Part shown: one piece after another, positions 6,114 to 39,585 of the stretch
Layout: each line of letters begins with the position of its first letter
Numbering within the stretch: the stretch's first letter is position 1
Assembly (NCBI RefSeq): GCF_030694575.1
Contig: NZ_JAUYUS010000037.1
Coordinates: 1-39,585 of the forward strand
Direction: 5' to 3'
DNA length: 39,585 nt
Source of the DNA: Parvibaculum sp.
GTDB taxonomy: Bacteria > Pseudomonadota > Alphaproteobacteria > Parvibaculales > Parvibaculaceae
Program-made: the position numbers and the translations under genes
Notes under the pieces: generated by a model
What the model saw: only the letters and a program-made list of their open reading frames with translations
Told to the model about the DNA's origin: nothing
Database searches by the model: none

Positions 6114-6187
6114 TGGAGCGGGTGAAGGGAATCGAACCCTCGTCGTAAGCTTGGGAAGCTTCTGCTCTGCCATTGAGCTACACCCGC
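6114..6187 (-). tRNA. tRNA-Gly (anticodon CCC)
   Basis: A complete cloverleaf on the minus strand. The acceptor stem is GCGGGTG pairing with CACCCGC, the D arm is GCTC-AATGGCA-GAGC, and the anticodon loop TTCCCAA gives anticodon CCC. The T arm reads GAGGG-TTCGATT-CCCTT, and CCA is encoded in the genome. The outermost anticodon-stem pair (27-43) is a G-A mismatch. It lies between the DUF2804 gene and the small lipoprotein. No second copy of its 3' end occurs in the window, so there is no sign that an element has integrated here. Confidence 0.97.
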
Positions 6188-11349: not shown

Positions 11350-11358
11350 GCGCGCGAA

Positions 11359-11415
11359 CTCGTGGTGATTTGAGCCGACCGGCTTGCGGCCACGTTAAAT
11401 AAATCGCTAAAAAGG
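11359..11415 (+). promoter_or_regulatory. SAM-II riboswitch aptamer
   Basis: S-adenosylmethionine-sensing RNA in the 5' leader of metZ. It matches the SAM-II (metA) consensus: the P1 stem CGTGG ... CCACG (11361-11365 with 11390-11394), the conserved TGATTTG at the start of the loop, GGCTTGC, then the 3' segment TAAATAAATCGCTAAAAAGG that folds back into the loop as a pseudoknot. This class is largely alphaproteobacterial and usually precedes metA, metX, metZ or metC. High SAM is expected to turn metZ off. Confidence 0.95.
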
Positions 11416-11427
11416 TCGGGACGCGAG

Positions 11428-11454
11428 CCCCGATCCGCCAGGTCGGGGTTTTTT
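11428..11454 (+). terminator. riboswitch-linked intrinsic terminator with competing antiterminator
   Basis: CCCCGATC (11428-11435) pairs with GGTCGGGG (11441-11448), an 8-pair stem with one G-T, around CGCCA and followed by six T. The same CCCGATC can instead pair with GGTCGGG at 11414-11420, which begins inside the 3' end of the aptamer. The two pairings exclude each other, as expected for transcriptional control of metZ. Confidence 0.75.
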
Positions 11455-33689: not shown

Positions 33690-33715
33690 TGGGGGACGGC
33701 CTCGACACGCGATAG

Positions 33716-33878
33716 TGTCATACCGGTGATCCCGGCTTTCGCCGGGACAGGAGCCGGGACCCAATCCACCTCAATTCTTGTGCGATGTGCCAATAGCTCG
33801 GTGCCGGGGCAAACGGCGAGTGCAACAGCCCTTGCTGAGGGAACCAATGGGTCCCGGCTTTCGCCGGGATGACAATTG
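33716..33878 (+). repeat. palindromic repeat element, copy A
   Basis: A unit bounded by hairpin-forming GTCATCCCGG...CCGGGAC ends (CCCGGCTTTCGCCGGG at 33731-33746 and 33853-33868). It shares 32 identical bases (33828-33859) in inverted orientation with copy B at 34931-34962, and 17 more at the other end. This TGGGTCCCGG-type repeat is common in alphaproteobacterial intergenic DNA. Confidence 0.8.
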
Positions 33879-33969
33879 TTTTTTGGTTTTTGGTGGAAGG
33901 CGCCGCCGCTTTTGTCATTCGGGGGCGGGCGGGATATTCTGCGGGACTTCCCCCAAACGGATGGATTTC

Positions 33970-34860
33970 ATGACGGATCGGACTTCGCAGCTCATCGGCC
34001 CCGCCTCGCGCGTTTATTTCTCGCAGCGGCTTCGGCTTCATTATGTGGACTGGGGGAACGAGGGGGCGCCGCCGCTGCTCATGATCCATGGCGGGCGCGA
34101 CCATTGCCGGAACTGGGACTGGACGGCGCAGGCGATGCGCGACCGCTATCACATCATCGCGCCCGATCTGCGCGGGCATGGCGACAGCCAGTGGATGGTG
34201 GGGAGCGGCTATGAGCTCAACGATTACGTCTACGACATCGCGCAACTGATCCACCAGAAGGGGCTGGCGCCGCTGACCATCATCGCGCATTCGATGGGGG
34301 GCGCGGTGGCGCTGCGCTATGCGGGGCTTTATCCCGAGACGGTGAAGAAGCTCATCGTGATCGAGGGGCTGGGGCCCTCGCCGAAGATGCTCAGTGAGCG
34401 GAAGGAAATTTCCACCGACCAGCGCATCCGCAACTGGATCGACGAGGTGCGCAAGCTCTCGTCGCGGCAGCCGCGCCGCTACGACTCGATCGAGGATGCC
34501 TACAAGCGGATGCAGGGCGAGAACCCGCATCTCTCGCCGGAGCGGGCGCGGCACCTCACCGTGCATGGCGTGAACCAGAACGAGGACGGCACTTACAGCT
34601 GGAAATTCGACAATTACGTGCGCGCCTTTTCGCCGGCGGGTTTCGACGAGGAGACCTCGACGAAGCTCTGGGCCCGCATCACCTGCCCGACGCTGCTCAT
34701 CCGCGGCACGGAAAGCTGGGCGAGCGACCCGGTGGCGGACGGGCGGGCGAAGCATTTCAAGACGGCGAAGGTCGTGGCCGTCGAGGGCGCGGGGCACTGG
34801 GTGCAGCACGACAAGCTGGACGAGTTCCTGCGGCTGACGGATGAGTTTCTGGCGGAGTAG
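33970..34860 (+). CDS. alpha/beta fold hydrolase
   Basis: A 296-residue esterase, lipase or epoxide-hydrolase-like enzyme. The fold landmarks are all present: oxyanion loop LLMIHGGRDHCRNWDW, PDLRGHGDS, the nucleophile Ser in IIAHSMGGAVAL, the acid region LLIRGTESWASDP and the catalytic His in VEGAGHWVQHDKLDEF. The cap domain is in the middle (about 150-230). The ATG at 33970 was preferred; 33961 would add three residues. The frame is open much further upstream but runs through a repeat element, so that part is not coding. It is bracketed by inverted repeat copies A and B and has no operon partner. Confidence 0.9.
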   Translation: MTDRTSQLIGPASRVYFSQRLRLHYVDWGNEGAPPLLMIHGGRDHCRNWDWTAQAMRDRYHIIAPDLRGHGDSQWMVGSGYELNDYVYDIAQLIHQKGLAPLTIIAHSMGGAVALRYAGLYPETVKKLIVIEGLGPSPKMLSERKEISTDQRIRNWIDEVRKLSSRQPRRYDSIEDAYKRMQGENPHLSPERARHLTVHGVNQNEDGTYSWKFDNYVRAFSPAGFDEETSTKLWARITCPTLLIRGTESWASDPVADGRAKHFKTAKVVAVEGAGHWVQHDKLDEFLRLTDEFLAE

Positions 34861-34890
34861 GTTTTCGCCGTCTGATTTTTCCATCCAAAA

Positions 34891-35052
34891 CAATTGTCAT
34901 CCCGGTGATCCCGGCTTTCGCCGGGACAGGAGCCGGGACCCATTGGTTCCCTCAGCAAGGGCGATGGTGCACGGCGCATCGCAGAATGATGCACGGAGCG
35001 ATGGAGCACGCATCAACGTGGATTGGGTCCCGGCCTGCGCCGGGATGACAAT
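34891..35052 (-). repeat. palindromic repeat element, copy B (inverted relative to A)
   Basis: Starts CAATTGTCATCCCGGTGATC and ends GCCGGGATGACAAT. It matches copy A in reverse: 34931-34962 equals the complement of 33828-33859 over 32 bases, and 35018-35034 that of 33753-33769. Copies A and B flank the hydrolase gene. Confidence 0.8.
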
Positions 35053-35067
35053 ATTTTTTTGTTTTCC

Positions 35068-35125
35068 TCTTCGCGTCTCCGCGCCTCCGCGTGAGAAACT
35101 CTCTGCGGCTCTGCGCCTCTGCGTG
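35068..35125. repeat. 8-base-period CGCG/TGCG repeat array
   Basis: Three units CGCGTCTC, CGCGCCTC, CGCGTGAG, a short AAACT-type spacer, then CTGCGGCT, CTGCGCCT, CTGCGTGC. It resembles a short repeat seen widely between genes in many bacterial phyla, whose role is unknown to me. Confidence 0.6.
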
Positions 35126-35155
35126 CCGATCTCTTCCTTCGCCGGTTGCGGCGGC

Positions 35156-35190
35156 GTGGATTGGGTCCCGGCTTGCGCCGGGATGACAAT
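35156..35190 (+). repeat. palindromic repeat, single arm (third copy)
   Basis: GTGGATTGGGTCCCGG-(cttgcg)-CCGGGATGACAAT repeats 35018-35052 with one difference over 35 bases. It lies 37 bases before the TetR stop, in the 366-base gap after the hydrolase gene, and may act as a terminator-like hairpin. Confidence 0.75.
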
Positions 35191-35226
35191 TTTTATTTGA
35201 TCCTTGGACGGAGGGTTTCGCGGCCG

Positions 35227-35913
35227 TCAGGTCTTCGAGGCTTCCTTCAGGGCCGCCAGCGTTTGTTCGGAGACGGGGGCGGTGAGGGCGCCGGCCAGGG
35301 CGTCGAAGAGGGAGGCGACGAAGAAGGCGCGGGCGGCGGCGTTCGTCGTCGCGTCGCCGCGGCGCGTCCAGATGGCAAGCGAGGTGAGCGCCATTTCGAC
35401 CATCAGGCGCTGGCGCTGCACGGCGATTTCGGGCGGCAGATCGGCGAGCACCGAAATGATGAGCGCGTTGGCGCGCGAGATGCCCTGGAAGCCGCTGCGG
35501 AGCGCGACGGTCGGCAGGTCGAAATCGGGATCGTTGAGCACCTGCGCCGCGAAGCGCACGAAGCGCACGCCCTCCTCCGTGTCGAGAAGGCCGGTCAAGG
35601 GCTCGAAGGTGGCGCGCAGGATCGCGTGGAGGTCGTCCGCCCCGCCCGCCTCGAGCAGCGCGTCGATGCGCGCCGCGCGGCGCTTGTCGATGGCGCCGAC
35701 GCGAGCATCGAGAATGGCCTGGACCAGACGCTGCTTGGAGCCGAAGTGATAATGCAGCGCGGACTCGTTGCGCTGGCCGGCGGCGACGTTGATCTCCTTC
35801 AGCGTGACGGCATGAAGCCCCCGCTCGCCGAACAGGCGCTCGGCAGCCTCCATCAGACGCGCGCGCGTATCGCCGCGCCGGGAAACCTTATCCGGATTTT
35901 CAAGTTCGCTCAT
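35227..35913 (-). CDS. TetR/AcrR family transcriptional regulator
   Basis: A 228-residue repressor-type regulator. The N-terminal helix-turn-helix reads TRARLMEAAERLFGERGLHAVTLKEINVAAG, with the recognition helix end ESALHYHFGSKQRLVQAILD. The long C-terminal ligand and dimer domain (about 150 residues) has several hydrophobic helices (ALIISVLADLPPEIAVQRQRLMVEMALTSLAIWTRRG). The ATG at 35913 lies 12 bases downstream of a 15-base palindrome, a good autoregulation site. It is divergent from the caspase-lysozyme fusion gene, with 151 bases between starts, so that gene is a candidate target. The ligand is unknown. Confidence 0.92.
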   Translation of the reverse strand: MSELENPDKVSRRGDTRARLMEAAERLFGERGLHAVTLKEINVAAGQRNESALHYHFGSKQRLVQAILDARVGAIDKRRAARIDALLEAGGADDLHAILRATFEPLTGLLDTEEGVRFVRFAAQVLNDPDFDLPTVALRSGFQGISRANALIISVLADLPPEIAVQRQRLMVEMALTSLAIWTRRGDATTNAAARAFFVASLFDALAGALTAPVSEQTLAALKEASKT

Positions 35914-35925
35914 ACCGGCAGAGAA

Positions 35926-35940
35926 TAATGATCCGCATTA
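35926..35940. promoter_or_regulatory. candidate TetR operator palindrome
   Basis: TAATG-ATCCG-CATTA, a 15-base inverted repeat 12 bases before the TetR start, in the control region it shares with the divergent fusion gene. Confidence 0.55.
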
Positions 35941-35998
35941 CGGGGGTCAATCGAATAGCAAAGACATAGTAAAACCGCAAATACACCCACTTTCTTTA

Positions 35999-36028
35999 TT
36001 GTATCATTTTGTAACTATTTGGCATAAT
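35999..36028 (+). promoter_or_regulatory. candidate promoter of the fusion gene
   Basis: TTGTAT, an 18-base spacer and CATAAT, in an unusually AT-rich 120-base stretch. The predicted RNA start near 36035 leaves a 30-base leader before the ATG at 36065. Confidence 0.5.
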
Positions 36029-36064
36029 ATCAAGTCTTGGGGTTTCGGCTACAGGCCGACTACA

Positions 36065-38008
36065 ATGATTACAAGATACGGTTTTCTTCCGATGCTGGCC
36101 CTGCTGGCCTGGGGACTCCAGGCGCCCCCGGCCGCCGCTCCCGCGACGGGCGTGGCCGGCCTGACGGGCGACGTCCCCATGGCGGGCGATCCCCCCGGGA
36201 GGAGCGGCGCGACGCAGGATACCGGCGAGAAGACGGCCCTCGCGGAGGAACGCGCGCGACTGTCCTATGCCCTCGTGATCGGCAATGAGCGGTATGCAAA
36301 TTATCCGGACTTCACCGGCGGCGAACTTGCCGCGCGGCGCATGGCAGCGCATCTGGCGGCGAGCGGCTACACGCTGGTGACCGGCGGCGCCGTCATCAAC
36401 GGCGCTTGGGCGGATGTCAGCTACGCACTGATGGAATTCCGCTCGGCGACGCGGGACGGCGGCATCGGCGTCGTCTATTTCGCCGGCCACACCTATTCCA
36501 GGGAAGGCGACAACTTCTTCCTCGCCGTCGATACCGCGGCACCCCGGAGCGAAAAGTTCATCCACACGCTGATTCCGGTCGACACGTTCTGGTCGTTTCC
36601 GCGCGGACGGGAGCCGGGGGCGCTGTTCATGGTGCTGGAAACCAAGGGCGCGCTGGGGATGCTGGGAGACAGGATAAAGGGCTCGGGCACGGGGCTCCTC
36701 GATTTCGAGACGCCGAGCAACGTCGTCGTGGCGCTGTCGGACGCGGCCGGGGCGGTGACGCTGTGGCCGCAGCAGAGCATCGAGGTGCCGGCGAAAACCG
36801 GCATCTGGGAGCGGCTCATGGGCAGCGAGCCGCCGGCCGAACTGCTGCCCTTCACAGCGGCGCTCATCGAAACCAGCGCGCTGACGGAGGGCGACGCCGT
36901 GGCGCTGCTGAAGGAGGCATCGCTGCGCGTGGCCGAGGCCACCGCCTTCGTGCAGCAGCCGGCGCTGTTCGCGACCGGGCGCAACGCCTTCGACCTGCAA
37001 TATTTCAGGCGCGAATTCGAAACGGCGGCAATCAAGCTGCAGAACGCCGTTCCCGACGCGCCGATGAACTTCAGTTCCGACGGGCTCGGCCTTACCAGCA
37101 TGATCCGGATGTTCGAGGGCTTCCGCGCCGCGCCCTATCTCGACATCGCGGGCATTCCGACGATCGGATACGGACACACGACCGGCGTGGCGATGAGCCA
37201 GCCGCCAATCACGGCGGCGGAAGCGGAACAGCTGCTCATCCTCGATCTCGCCAAGGCGGAAGCGGCCATCGACGAGCATGTGACGGTGGAGCTGAACGCC
37301 AACCAGCAGATGGCGCTCGCCTCGTTCATCTACAATGTGGGCACGGCGGGCTTTGCCAGTTCACAGGCCTTGCAGATGACGAATGAAGGCCGCTTCGAGG
37401 AGGCGGCGGCGGAAATGCTGCGCTGGGTGCATGTGCGGCGGAGCGAGAGCGGCCGGCCCTCGATGGAACCGGGGCTGCTGCGCCGCCGGGAGCTGGAGGC
37501 GTTCCTGTTCATCACGCCGGTGACGCCGGTATCGGCCGCCGAAATCATCCGGACCTTCGAGCCGATGTTCGCGGAGATGCGCGATACGGGGTCCGGGCGC
37601 CTGATCGGCTATGGACGCCGCGTCGACGATTTCGACGGCGCCTTCGTGCCGCCGACGAGCGTGGACGACGCGCTGGCGCGGGAATGGCTGGAAGAGGACG
37701 TGGCGCGGCTCGCGCTGCAGATCGCGGCGGCGGCCGGGGTGCCGCTGTCGCGCGGGCAGATGGCGGCGCTGATTTCCTATGCGCATGATGTGGGCTTCGA
37801 GAATTTCTATCGCTCGCCCGTTTTCACCCGGCTCACCCAGGAGGACTATGTGGGCGTGGCCAATGCGCTGCGCTTTGCCGAGGGCTCGCCGGGCAAGGGG
37901 CTTCTGCGCGTGGACCAGGGGACGATCAGCCGGCGCGCGGCGGAGGCGAGCCTGTTCTTCGCGAGCACCCATATCGAATTGCCGCGACCGCTCGCCGCGC
38001 TGCGCTGA
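36065..38008 (+). CDS. exported pseudo-caspase fused to two GH24 lysozyme-like domains
   Basis: A 647-residue protein. Residues 1-25 look like a signal peptide (FLPMLALLAWGLQAPPAAA). Residues 66-314 form a caspase-like (peptidase C14) domain: YALVIGNERYANYP, VVYFAGHTYSREGDNFFLAVD with His142, and the family tail LPFTAALIETSALTEGDAVALL. At the catalytic Cys position the strand reads FMVLETKGALG (190-199), and the protein has no Cys at all, so this half cannot be a cysteine protease. Residues 342-482 are a T4-type lysozyme domain with Glu351, Asp360 and Thr366 (MFEGFRAAPYLDIAGIPTIG). Residues 490-635 repeat the fold (Glu499, Asp507) but have Leu in place of Thr in GRLIGYG. The ATG at 36065 lies after the promoter; ribosome site weak. 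Probable murein-directed function in the envelope. Confidence 0.82.
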   Translation: MITRYGFLPMLALLAWGLQAPPAAAPATGVAGLTGDVPMAGDPPGRSGATQDTGEKTALAEERARLSYALVIGNERYANYPDFTGGELAARRMAAHLAASGYTLVTGGAVINGAWADVSYALMEFRSATRDGGIGVVYFAGHTYSREGDNFFLAVDTAAPRSEKFIHTLIPVDTFWSFPRGREPGALFMVLETKGALGMLGDRIKGSGTGLLDFETPSNVVVALSDAAGAVTLWPQQSIEVPAKTGIWERLMGSEPPAELLPFTAALIETSALTEGDAVALLKEASLRVAEATAFVQQPALFATGRNAFDLQYFRREFETAAIKLQNAVPDAPMNFSSDGLGLTSMIRMFEGFRAAPYLDIAGIPTIGYGHTTGVAMSQPPITAAEAEQLLILDLAKAEAAIDEHVTVELNANQQMALASFIYNVGTAGFASSQALQMTNEGRFEEAAAEMLRWVHVRRSESGRPSMEPGLLRRRELEAFLFITPVTPVSAAEIIRTFEPMFAEMRDTGSGRLIGYGRRVDDFDGAFVPPTSVDDALAREWLEEDVARLALQIAAAAGVPLSRGQMAALISYAHDVGFENFYRSPVFTRLTQEDYVGVANALRFAEGSPGKGLLRVDQGTISRRAAEASLFFASTHIELPRPLAALR

Positions 38009-38011
38009 GGC

Positions 38012-38218
38012 TCAGTCGAAGGGCCAGATGCCGCGATCCCTTGCGGGGAGGCCGAGCCATTCGCGGACCGCATCCTCGGCGGGGCGCGTCTCTTCCCAGA
38101 CCGGCACGGCCCCCTCGATCGCCTCGCGCGCGGTGGACGAGAAGACCGAAGCGATGAAGGCGAGGCCGAGGACCGTGATCAAGATCGTCAGCAGCGGACC
38201 GAAAGCGCGGGCGATCAT
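38012..38218 (-). CDS. small membrane protein, unknown
   Basis: A 68-residue protein with one N-terminal membrane helix (FGPLLTILITVLGLAFIASVF) and an acidic, Trp-containing C-terminus (VPVWEETRPAEDAVREWLGL, then GIWPFD). It ends three bases from the stop of the convergent caspase-lysozyme fusion. No homologue is recognised. Ribosome-site evidence is weak, but codon composition fits the neighbours. It could be a small envelope protein; a link to the fusion protein is only positional. Confidence 0.6.
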   Translation of the reverse strand: MIARAFGPLLTILITVLGLAFIASVFSSTAREAIEGAVPVWEETRPAEDAVREWLGLPARDRGIWPFD

Positions 38219-38417
38219 CTTGGGCGGTTTCCCATGGTGTGCGTCATTGCGCCGGGTTGGTTTGTTGGAGGGCGCTTGGGGGAGTGTCGTCTATCGAGGG
38301 ATTGTCCGCCAGCGGAGAAAGAGGGGTGAATCCGGCTTCGGCTACATATGAGGTCCGCTCTTGACGGATTACGGACATTCAAAGTATCCGATCTTACGTC
38401 GCTTCGGTCGAGATGCT

Positions 38418-39585
<1,168 letters not shown>

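Follow-up and report, generated by a model that had tools for sequence, protein, structure and literature searches.

Bacterial caspase folds that have lost their protease site are already in print as pseudo-orthocaspases (PMC6426788, PMC3501461); 8.6% of bacterial orthocaspases are without the dyad (PMC6426788), such forms are frequent in Alphaproteobacteria, where 75% of metacaspases keep the dyad (PMC3501461), and the commonest change of the dyad is that of His to Tyr together with Cys to Ser (PMC6426788, PMC3501461). Four fusions of a metacaspase with an Amidase_2 domain have also been published (PMC3501461) and, as they join a caspase fold to a peptidoglycan hydrolase, they are the closest printed relatives that were found. 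The nearest tested precedent for intramolecular restraint in a multi-domain wall hydrolase is PrgK of pCF10, in which the activity of the live muramidase is lowered by domains that do not themselves work, one being degenerate (PMC11323569).

The gene described here lies in a window of 39,585 nucleotides of Parvibaculum sp. (the whole stretch of DNA that was analysed), and it differs from each of these systems. With the pseudo-orthocaspases it shares a p20 fold and the loss of the His-Cys dyad, but where Tyr and Ser are typical of them, here the His is kept and the Cys has become Lys, and none of those described in the accessible text is joined to a lysozyme. The metacaspase-Amidase_2 fusions carry an amidase and not a GH24 muramidase, and tandem GH24 domains are unmentioned in the accessible part of their description; PrgK, in turn, is built from LytM, SLT and CHAP domains, belongs to a Gram-positive conjugation machine, and is described there without a caspase or a GH24 domain. 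The word “lysozyme” is absent from the main text of PMC3501461 and PMC6426788, and none of the papers listed by literature searches, in a library without most subscription papers, describes a caspase-lysozyme fusion. The pseudo-caspase that the preliminary description put forward is as such not new, since both pseudo-orthocaspases and fusions of a caspase with an amidase have been published (PMC6426788, PMC3501461); the parts are of known kinds, and their combination is new to the literature searched.

The gene and its product

The gene (36065..38008, + strand; open reading frame and Pfam) is one intact frame of 647 residues, with no internal stop and not a single cysteine in its product, and the GC of its codon positions (0.66/0.50/0.84, measured on the longer frame that starts at TTG) resembles that of the adjacent genes. 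The possibility of a frameshift, raised in the preliminary description, was not borne out, the 647 codons being open throughout; an assembly error, raised there too, was judged unlikely given this intact frame and the host-like codon use, in a gene known from a single genome. Pfam places Peptidase_C14 at residues 68–171, followed by two Phage_lysozyme stretches, and lists no family beyond caspase and GH24. A single-sequence AlphaFold2 model of the full-length protein (pLDDT 35.4) is useless for contacts between domains.

The first residues, about 1–25 (36065..36139, + strand), read as a probable Sec signal peptide, with A-x-A near residues 23–25 and without a lipobox; within the first 40 residues the 12-residue hydropathy maximum is 2.0. 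The protein thus probably carries an export signal, in agreement with what had been claimed at first. Its caspase relatives in the class also mostly look exported, since a crude hydropathy test places a hydrophobic segment in front of the domain in 26 of 29.

Elsewhere in the window there are a SAM_alpha riboswitch (11352-11431, + strand), a tRNA (6117-6187, − strand) and, at about 33690-35200, copies of an intergenic short repeat whose translation in the reading-frame listings is like “WVPACAGMT/FRRDD”.

A caspase fold without its protease site

The Peptidase_C14 match is above the Pfam cut-off (E 7e-6), and residues 58–335 (36236..37069, + strand) were modelled with AlphaFold2 from an alignment of 97 sequences, that is, the domain itself and 96 homologous domains from related loci, giving a pLDDT of 81.8 and a pTM of 0.80. 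Among solved structures the MALT1 paracaspase matches the model best, found by Foldseek at E 1.1e-12 and again at the head of the VIA-align 2 ranking (3uo8_C, Z 23.1, rmsd 5.9, 218 residues aligned; 3v4o_A, Z 22.3, rmsd 3.2, 214 aligned), with rows of procaspase-6 and caspase-7 at Z ~19–21. MALT1 is an active protease with Ig domains, and the identity with it is about 19% over the aligned part. A fold search of BFVD added nine matches at E ≤ 0.001, eight carrying the name caspase or metacaspase and the ninth an ORFan, all of which we take to be giant-virus proteins. The confidence of the model together with the MALT1 and procaspase matches makes the structural claim firm for residues 58–335, which are predicted to adopt a caspase fold (C14, clan CD; p20); the doubt first entertained, that structure prediction would show no such fold, was not borne out.

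The His loop YFAGHT (residues 138–143, with His142; 36476..36493, + strand) and the tail of the family (Q297, P299) are kept, as had been noted at the outset. The expected strand L-D-A-C-R reads here L191-E192-T193-K194-G195, so that L-E-T-K (residues 191–194; 36635..36646, + strand) stands in the place of L-D-A-C, and Lys194 occupies the column of the catalytic Cys, which is Cys in 94 of the 96 homologues and a gap in the other two. This upholds the earlier reading of the strand, and does not bear out the idea that the homologues might carry their Cys elsewhere. Because the His loop is itself part of one of the patterns used to collect the homologues, the set cannot measure the loss of His.

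The loss extends well beyond the nucleophile. Conservation in 85% or more of the 96 homologues marks out 43 columns; 27 of them, including many in the core and the tail, are kept here and 16 are lost, including Cys to Lys194, the Asp of DAC to Glu192, the Asp of NPxND to Ala89 and the Asp of ADG to Thr245. By our reading, nine of these 16 belong to the site or adjoin it (Ala89, Thr143, Glu192, Thr193, Lys194, Gly195, Gly198, Met199, Thr245). The homologues retain on average 94% of the conserved columns and this domain 63%, which equals the lowest value among the 96; it is the extreme of that set, with two others close to it (65% and 67%). The residues that define an active C14 protease are incomplete, His142 being present and the Cys lost, and those of an active C14B protease have also gone, with Ala89 and Glu192 in place of the Asp of the NPxND and DAC motifs, which we take to be the acidic S1 pocket residues of C14B proteases. 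Judged by its residues the caspase domain is proteolytically dead, having lost its protease site. A p20 fold with a lost dyad is what PMC6426788, in its accessible text, defines as a pseudo-orthocaspase.

Further losses of the Cys occur in three of 26 caspase rows at the level of the class (L013, L018 and L034; L008 and L023 in this set are one gene), and such nearby losses agree with the printed rates of dyad loss (PMC3501461, PMC6426788, accessible text). In L018 the site reads DAWR instead of DACR; L013 and L034 have GHT/GHS loops, a site without Cys, and repeats that by eye are SH3-like.

Two lysozyme domains

When PF00959 was searched against each copy separately, both exceeded the cut-off of 22.3 bits, at E 4e-37 for copy 1 (residues 345–484; 37097..37516, + strand) and E 2.2e-13 for copy 2 (residues about 491–633; 37535..37963, + strand). 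Copy 1 has the complete motif, E351-x8-D360-x5-T366, in accordance with E-x8-D/C-x5-T, and is predicted from these residues to hold a live-looking muramidase centre. Copy 2 departs from the triad: E499 is kept, the Thr column is a gap, and a Thr stands in the Asp column with an Asp one residue before it, for which reason the loss of the Asp depends on the alignment. An intact GH24 domain next to a copy without the Thr, as first described, is therefore what the alignment contains, and on its residues copy 2 is a degenerate GH24 that could be inert.

In 125 other GH24 domains, a set that excludes every row from the window, the Thr column holds Thr in 111, another residue in 13 and none in one, a rate that is biased because ten of the 13 sit in bacterial reading frames of 421–926 residues chosen for their length. 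Compared over 122 columns, copies 1 and 2 share 28% identity, and the lists of their nearest relatives differ at the top and overlap lower down, in such a way that an internal duplication and a separate capture are not distinguishable.

Domains of this phage type are also used by bacteria in proteins such as SpmX. The SpmX and BgtA families (NCBIfam NF051871 and NF058676) are alike in this respect, but a caspase domain is absent from the family description, and the scores against them fall far below the family values (SpmX 101.7 of 700 bits; BgtA, a GTA endolysin, 137.2 of 315 bits).

Distribution of the fusion

The order caspase/GH24/GH24 was found in no other genome searched and is, at present, a single occurrence. 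In the genus, the caspase half was matched in one of 27 genomes, its own, the other 26 being without a match; in the class it was matched in 41 of 385 genomes including its own (no more than five candidates were scored in each), the best other match having 26% identity at E 1.1e-11, and copy 2 was matched in 47 of 385, also including its own, the best other match having 33% at E 1.3e-13. Searches with the full protein covered 61 relatives, 40 of the order and 398 of the phylum (scoring up to three candidates in each genome), and 377 and 258 of two other orders (E ≤ 1e-8; up to three or four candidates); the samples overlap, and are even draws rather than complete sets. Among the matches listed, none besides the window spans the caspase and the GH24 parts; they fall in one or the other, and a few start in the stretch between.

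The converse searches gave the same picture. GH24 was found in none of 136 other caspase reading frames (133 distinct; 140 had been collected, four of them the window gene, and some are cut by the ends of their loci), and the caspase HMM found no caspase at E 0.01 in the long GH24 reading frames that were fetched. In its own genome, PF00959 has two matches, both inside this gene, there being no other GH24 gene, and PF00656 has none, in a search so insensitive that it also missed the caspase domain of the window. Of the phage collection (50,697 records) 2306 matched, and of the plasmid collection (72,556) 401, in neither case with a record in which one place covers 80% of the protein, on which grounds a phage or plasmid origin of the whole gene was rejected; the ten phage rows and ten plasmid rows listed all lie within residues 278–636, that is, the GH24 part and slightly before it. 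Exact peptide patterns of the full protein gave nothing in viral contigs and, in genome contigs, 18 stretches of which none is a relative, a test that needs exact matches of eight residues and that diverged orthologues would escape. The novelty attributed to this domain order has thus held, both in the other genomes and in the literature searched; having no orthologue, the fusion offers no evidence from conservation that it has been under selection.

The insertion site

Upstream, a divergent gene of the tetR family (35227..35913, − strand; profile and locus comparison) is kept in sister species without the pseudo-caspase gene. Its predicted promoter (−35 TTGACC, −10 TATTCT) contains a palindrome, TAATGN5CATTA (35926..35940), a probable operator that precedes tetR in every one of the 16 loci compared, with or without the pseudo-caspase gene, and that points to autoregulation of tetR. 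Between the palindrome and the gene there is an AT-rich stretch (35951..36064, + strand), which by eye was not seen before tetR in 15 sister loci. The AT-rich promoter and divergent TetR of the preliminary description are accordingly present as a stretch and a gene, but on the + strand of that stretch no sigma-70-like site turned up in a promoter scan, and control of the pseudo-caspase gene by TetR was rejected as unsupported, since tetR and palindrome are conserved where the gene is missing.

Downstream, separated by 3 bp, a convergent gene for a small membrane-protein-like product (38012..38218, − strand) occurs in six of the 19 sister loci fetched, and beyond it a copper-type P-type ATPase gene, named from sequence and cut by the contig end (38418..39585, − strand), forms the far flank of a variable interval. 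This interval between the ATPase and tetR (window 35913-38418; compared in loci L248-L266) is a swap site in the genus. The surroundings of tetR were obtained from 19 of the 26 other genomes, with the ATPase on the same stretch in 13, making 14 intervals with that of the window, of which four are empty (about 60–115 bp between the matched parts) and ten occupied, including the window. Strong PADLOC matches are present in five of the nine other occupied intervals: PD-Lambda-2 B and C in G013, OLD/AriA-like in G008, NsnA/GmrSD-like in G016, HEC-05-like in G011, and a methylase with Vsr in G023, the PADLOC methylase models being unspecific. The four without a strong match hold PIN_8, RES, AAA and, in one case, no family. 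The six stretches without the ATPase include Pycsar PycC and CapP beside the small gene in G026, a methylase in G017 and a HEPN protein in G021, the other three being those of G001, G022 and G012. The GC of the interval is 0.48–0.54 in G013, G005, G025, G016, G011, G009 and G023. It rises to 0.585 in G008 and 0.634 in G024, where an amine oxidase gene is present as well; that of the window is host-like, at 0.653.

More precisely, the pseudo-caspase gene occupies a sub-slot, bounded by tetR and the gene for the small membrane protein, that elsewhere is empty (G026, about 50 bp) or holds a DUF3237 gene (G017) or an ATPase fragment and a frame of 149 residues (G008), and from this comparison the insertion consists of one gene with its AT-rich upstream stretch. 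The association of the gene with a defence-type site is suggestive, not strong; that genes of defence type are swapped at this interval within the genus is a separately useful result. Among the inserted genes there are partial copies of the 3′ end of the ATPase and of the 5′ end of tetR (L250:3144-7055; L251:3262-5059), which hint that the cargo moves by recombination between the flanks. G001 and G022 have in common an exported-looking frame of 659 residues adjoining the small gene (L261:1199-3178, − strand; L264:1749-3956, + strand).

Discussion

The frame, the folds, the lost residues and the place of insertion come directly from the computation, and the reading that we prefer, with a probability of about 0.5, is that of a Sec-exported muramidase in which the dead caspase fold and the second GH24 copy would dock, target or restrain. 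In this scheme: (i) the gene would have arrived alone, bringing its own upstream region; (ii) the product would be exported by Sec to the periplasm; (iii) copy 1 (E351/D360/T366) would be the only live centre, cutting the glycan strands of murein; (iv) the dead N-terminal caspase fold would most likely be a docking or restraining domain for proteins; (v) and finally, the degenerate copy 2 would most likely bind glycan or pack on copy 1, positioning or damping it. Export, lysozyme activity, docking or restraint, and binding to the wall are what we infer in this scheme. The triad of copy 1, the significant GH24 match of both copies, the confident caspase fold, the 27 of 43 conserved columns that are kept, the mostly exported-looking relatives and the precedent of PrgK (PMC11323569) argue for this reading. 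It also draws on a genome with neither a PF00656 match nor another GH24 gene, and against it stand the missing orthologue and the insensitivity of that C14 search, which could miss a divergent caspase partner.

A single occurrence, with catalytic residues missing from two of its three domains, could also be a recent fusion of little function, a dead caspase with captured lysozymes heading to decay, and this, unlikely as it is, comes foremost among the alternatives; 647 intact codons, host-like codon use, the kept core and tail residues of the caspase and the full triad of copy 1 speak against it. Next in order, and slightly less likely still, is a secreted antibacterial lysozyme directed against neighbours, with the caspase fold as the part for delivery or receptor binding: the probable export signal, the complete triad and the patchy presence would suit it, but there is no obvious immunity gene, the adjacent small gene being found also in species without the pseudo-caspase gene, and Pfam recognises no families other than caspase and GH24. 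At the other end, an enzymatic activity kept or gained by the caspase fold, with His142 and a different nucleophile, is highly improbable; His142 and its loop persist while much of the remaining site is lost, but the Cys, the conserved Asp positions near it and the Arg that follows it have all been replaced, and no alternative nucleophile was identified.

The insertion site brings in an effector of defence or self-lysis borne by the hotspot, in which the dead caspase would sense a phage or stress partner in the envelope and free the lysozyme to kill the cell. PADLOC-type genes in the same interval of five other genomes, and PycC/CapP in a sixth (G026), speak for it; against it, the protein matches no PADLOC family at E 0.1, the methylase models count for little as they are unspecific, the other occupants of the sub-slot are not recognised defence genes, host-like non-defence genes (the amine oxidase of G008 and G024) share the interval, and its GC is host-like in the window, in contrast to that of the seven island-only intervals. 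We hold such an effector to be improbable, marginally more so than the antibacterial lysozyme, and its narrower form, a periplasmic lysozyme gated by the caspase at a defence-swapping site, where the dead fold would release the lysozyme on sensing a protease, damage to the envelope or part of a phage, to be a long shot. If it were true, a caspase fold would trigger bacterial lysis by contact and not by proteolysis.

Work on bacterial caspase folds has mostly treated them as proteases, or as pseudo-enzymes for which no partner is known. In an exported muramidase of the kind that we prefer, a dead caspase is fused to a live-looking wall-cutting domain, and the cleavage of murein would give a pseudo-caspase a direct and testable output; in other words, the fusion may be a new way to control a wall-cutting enzyme.
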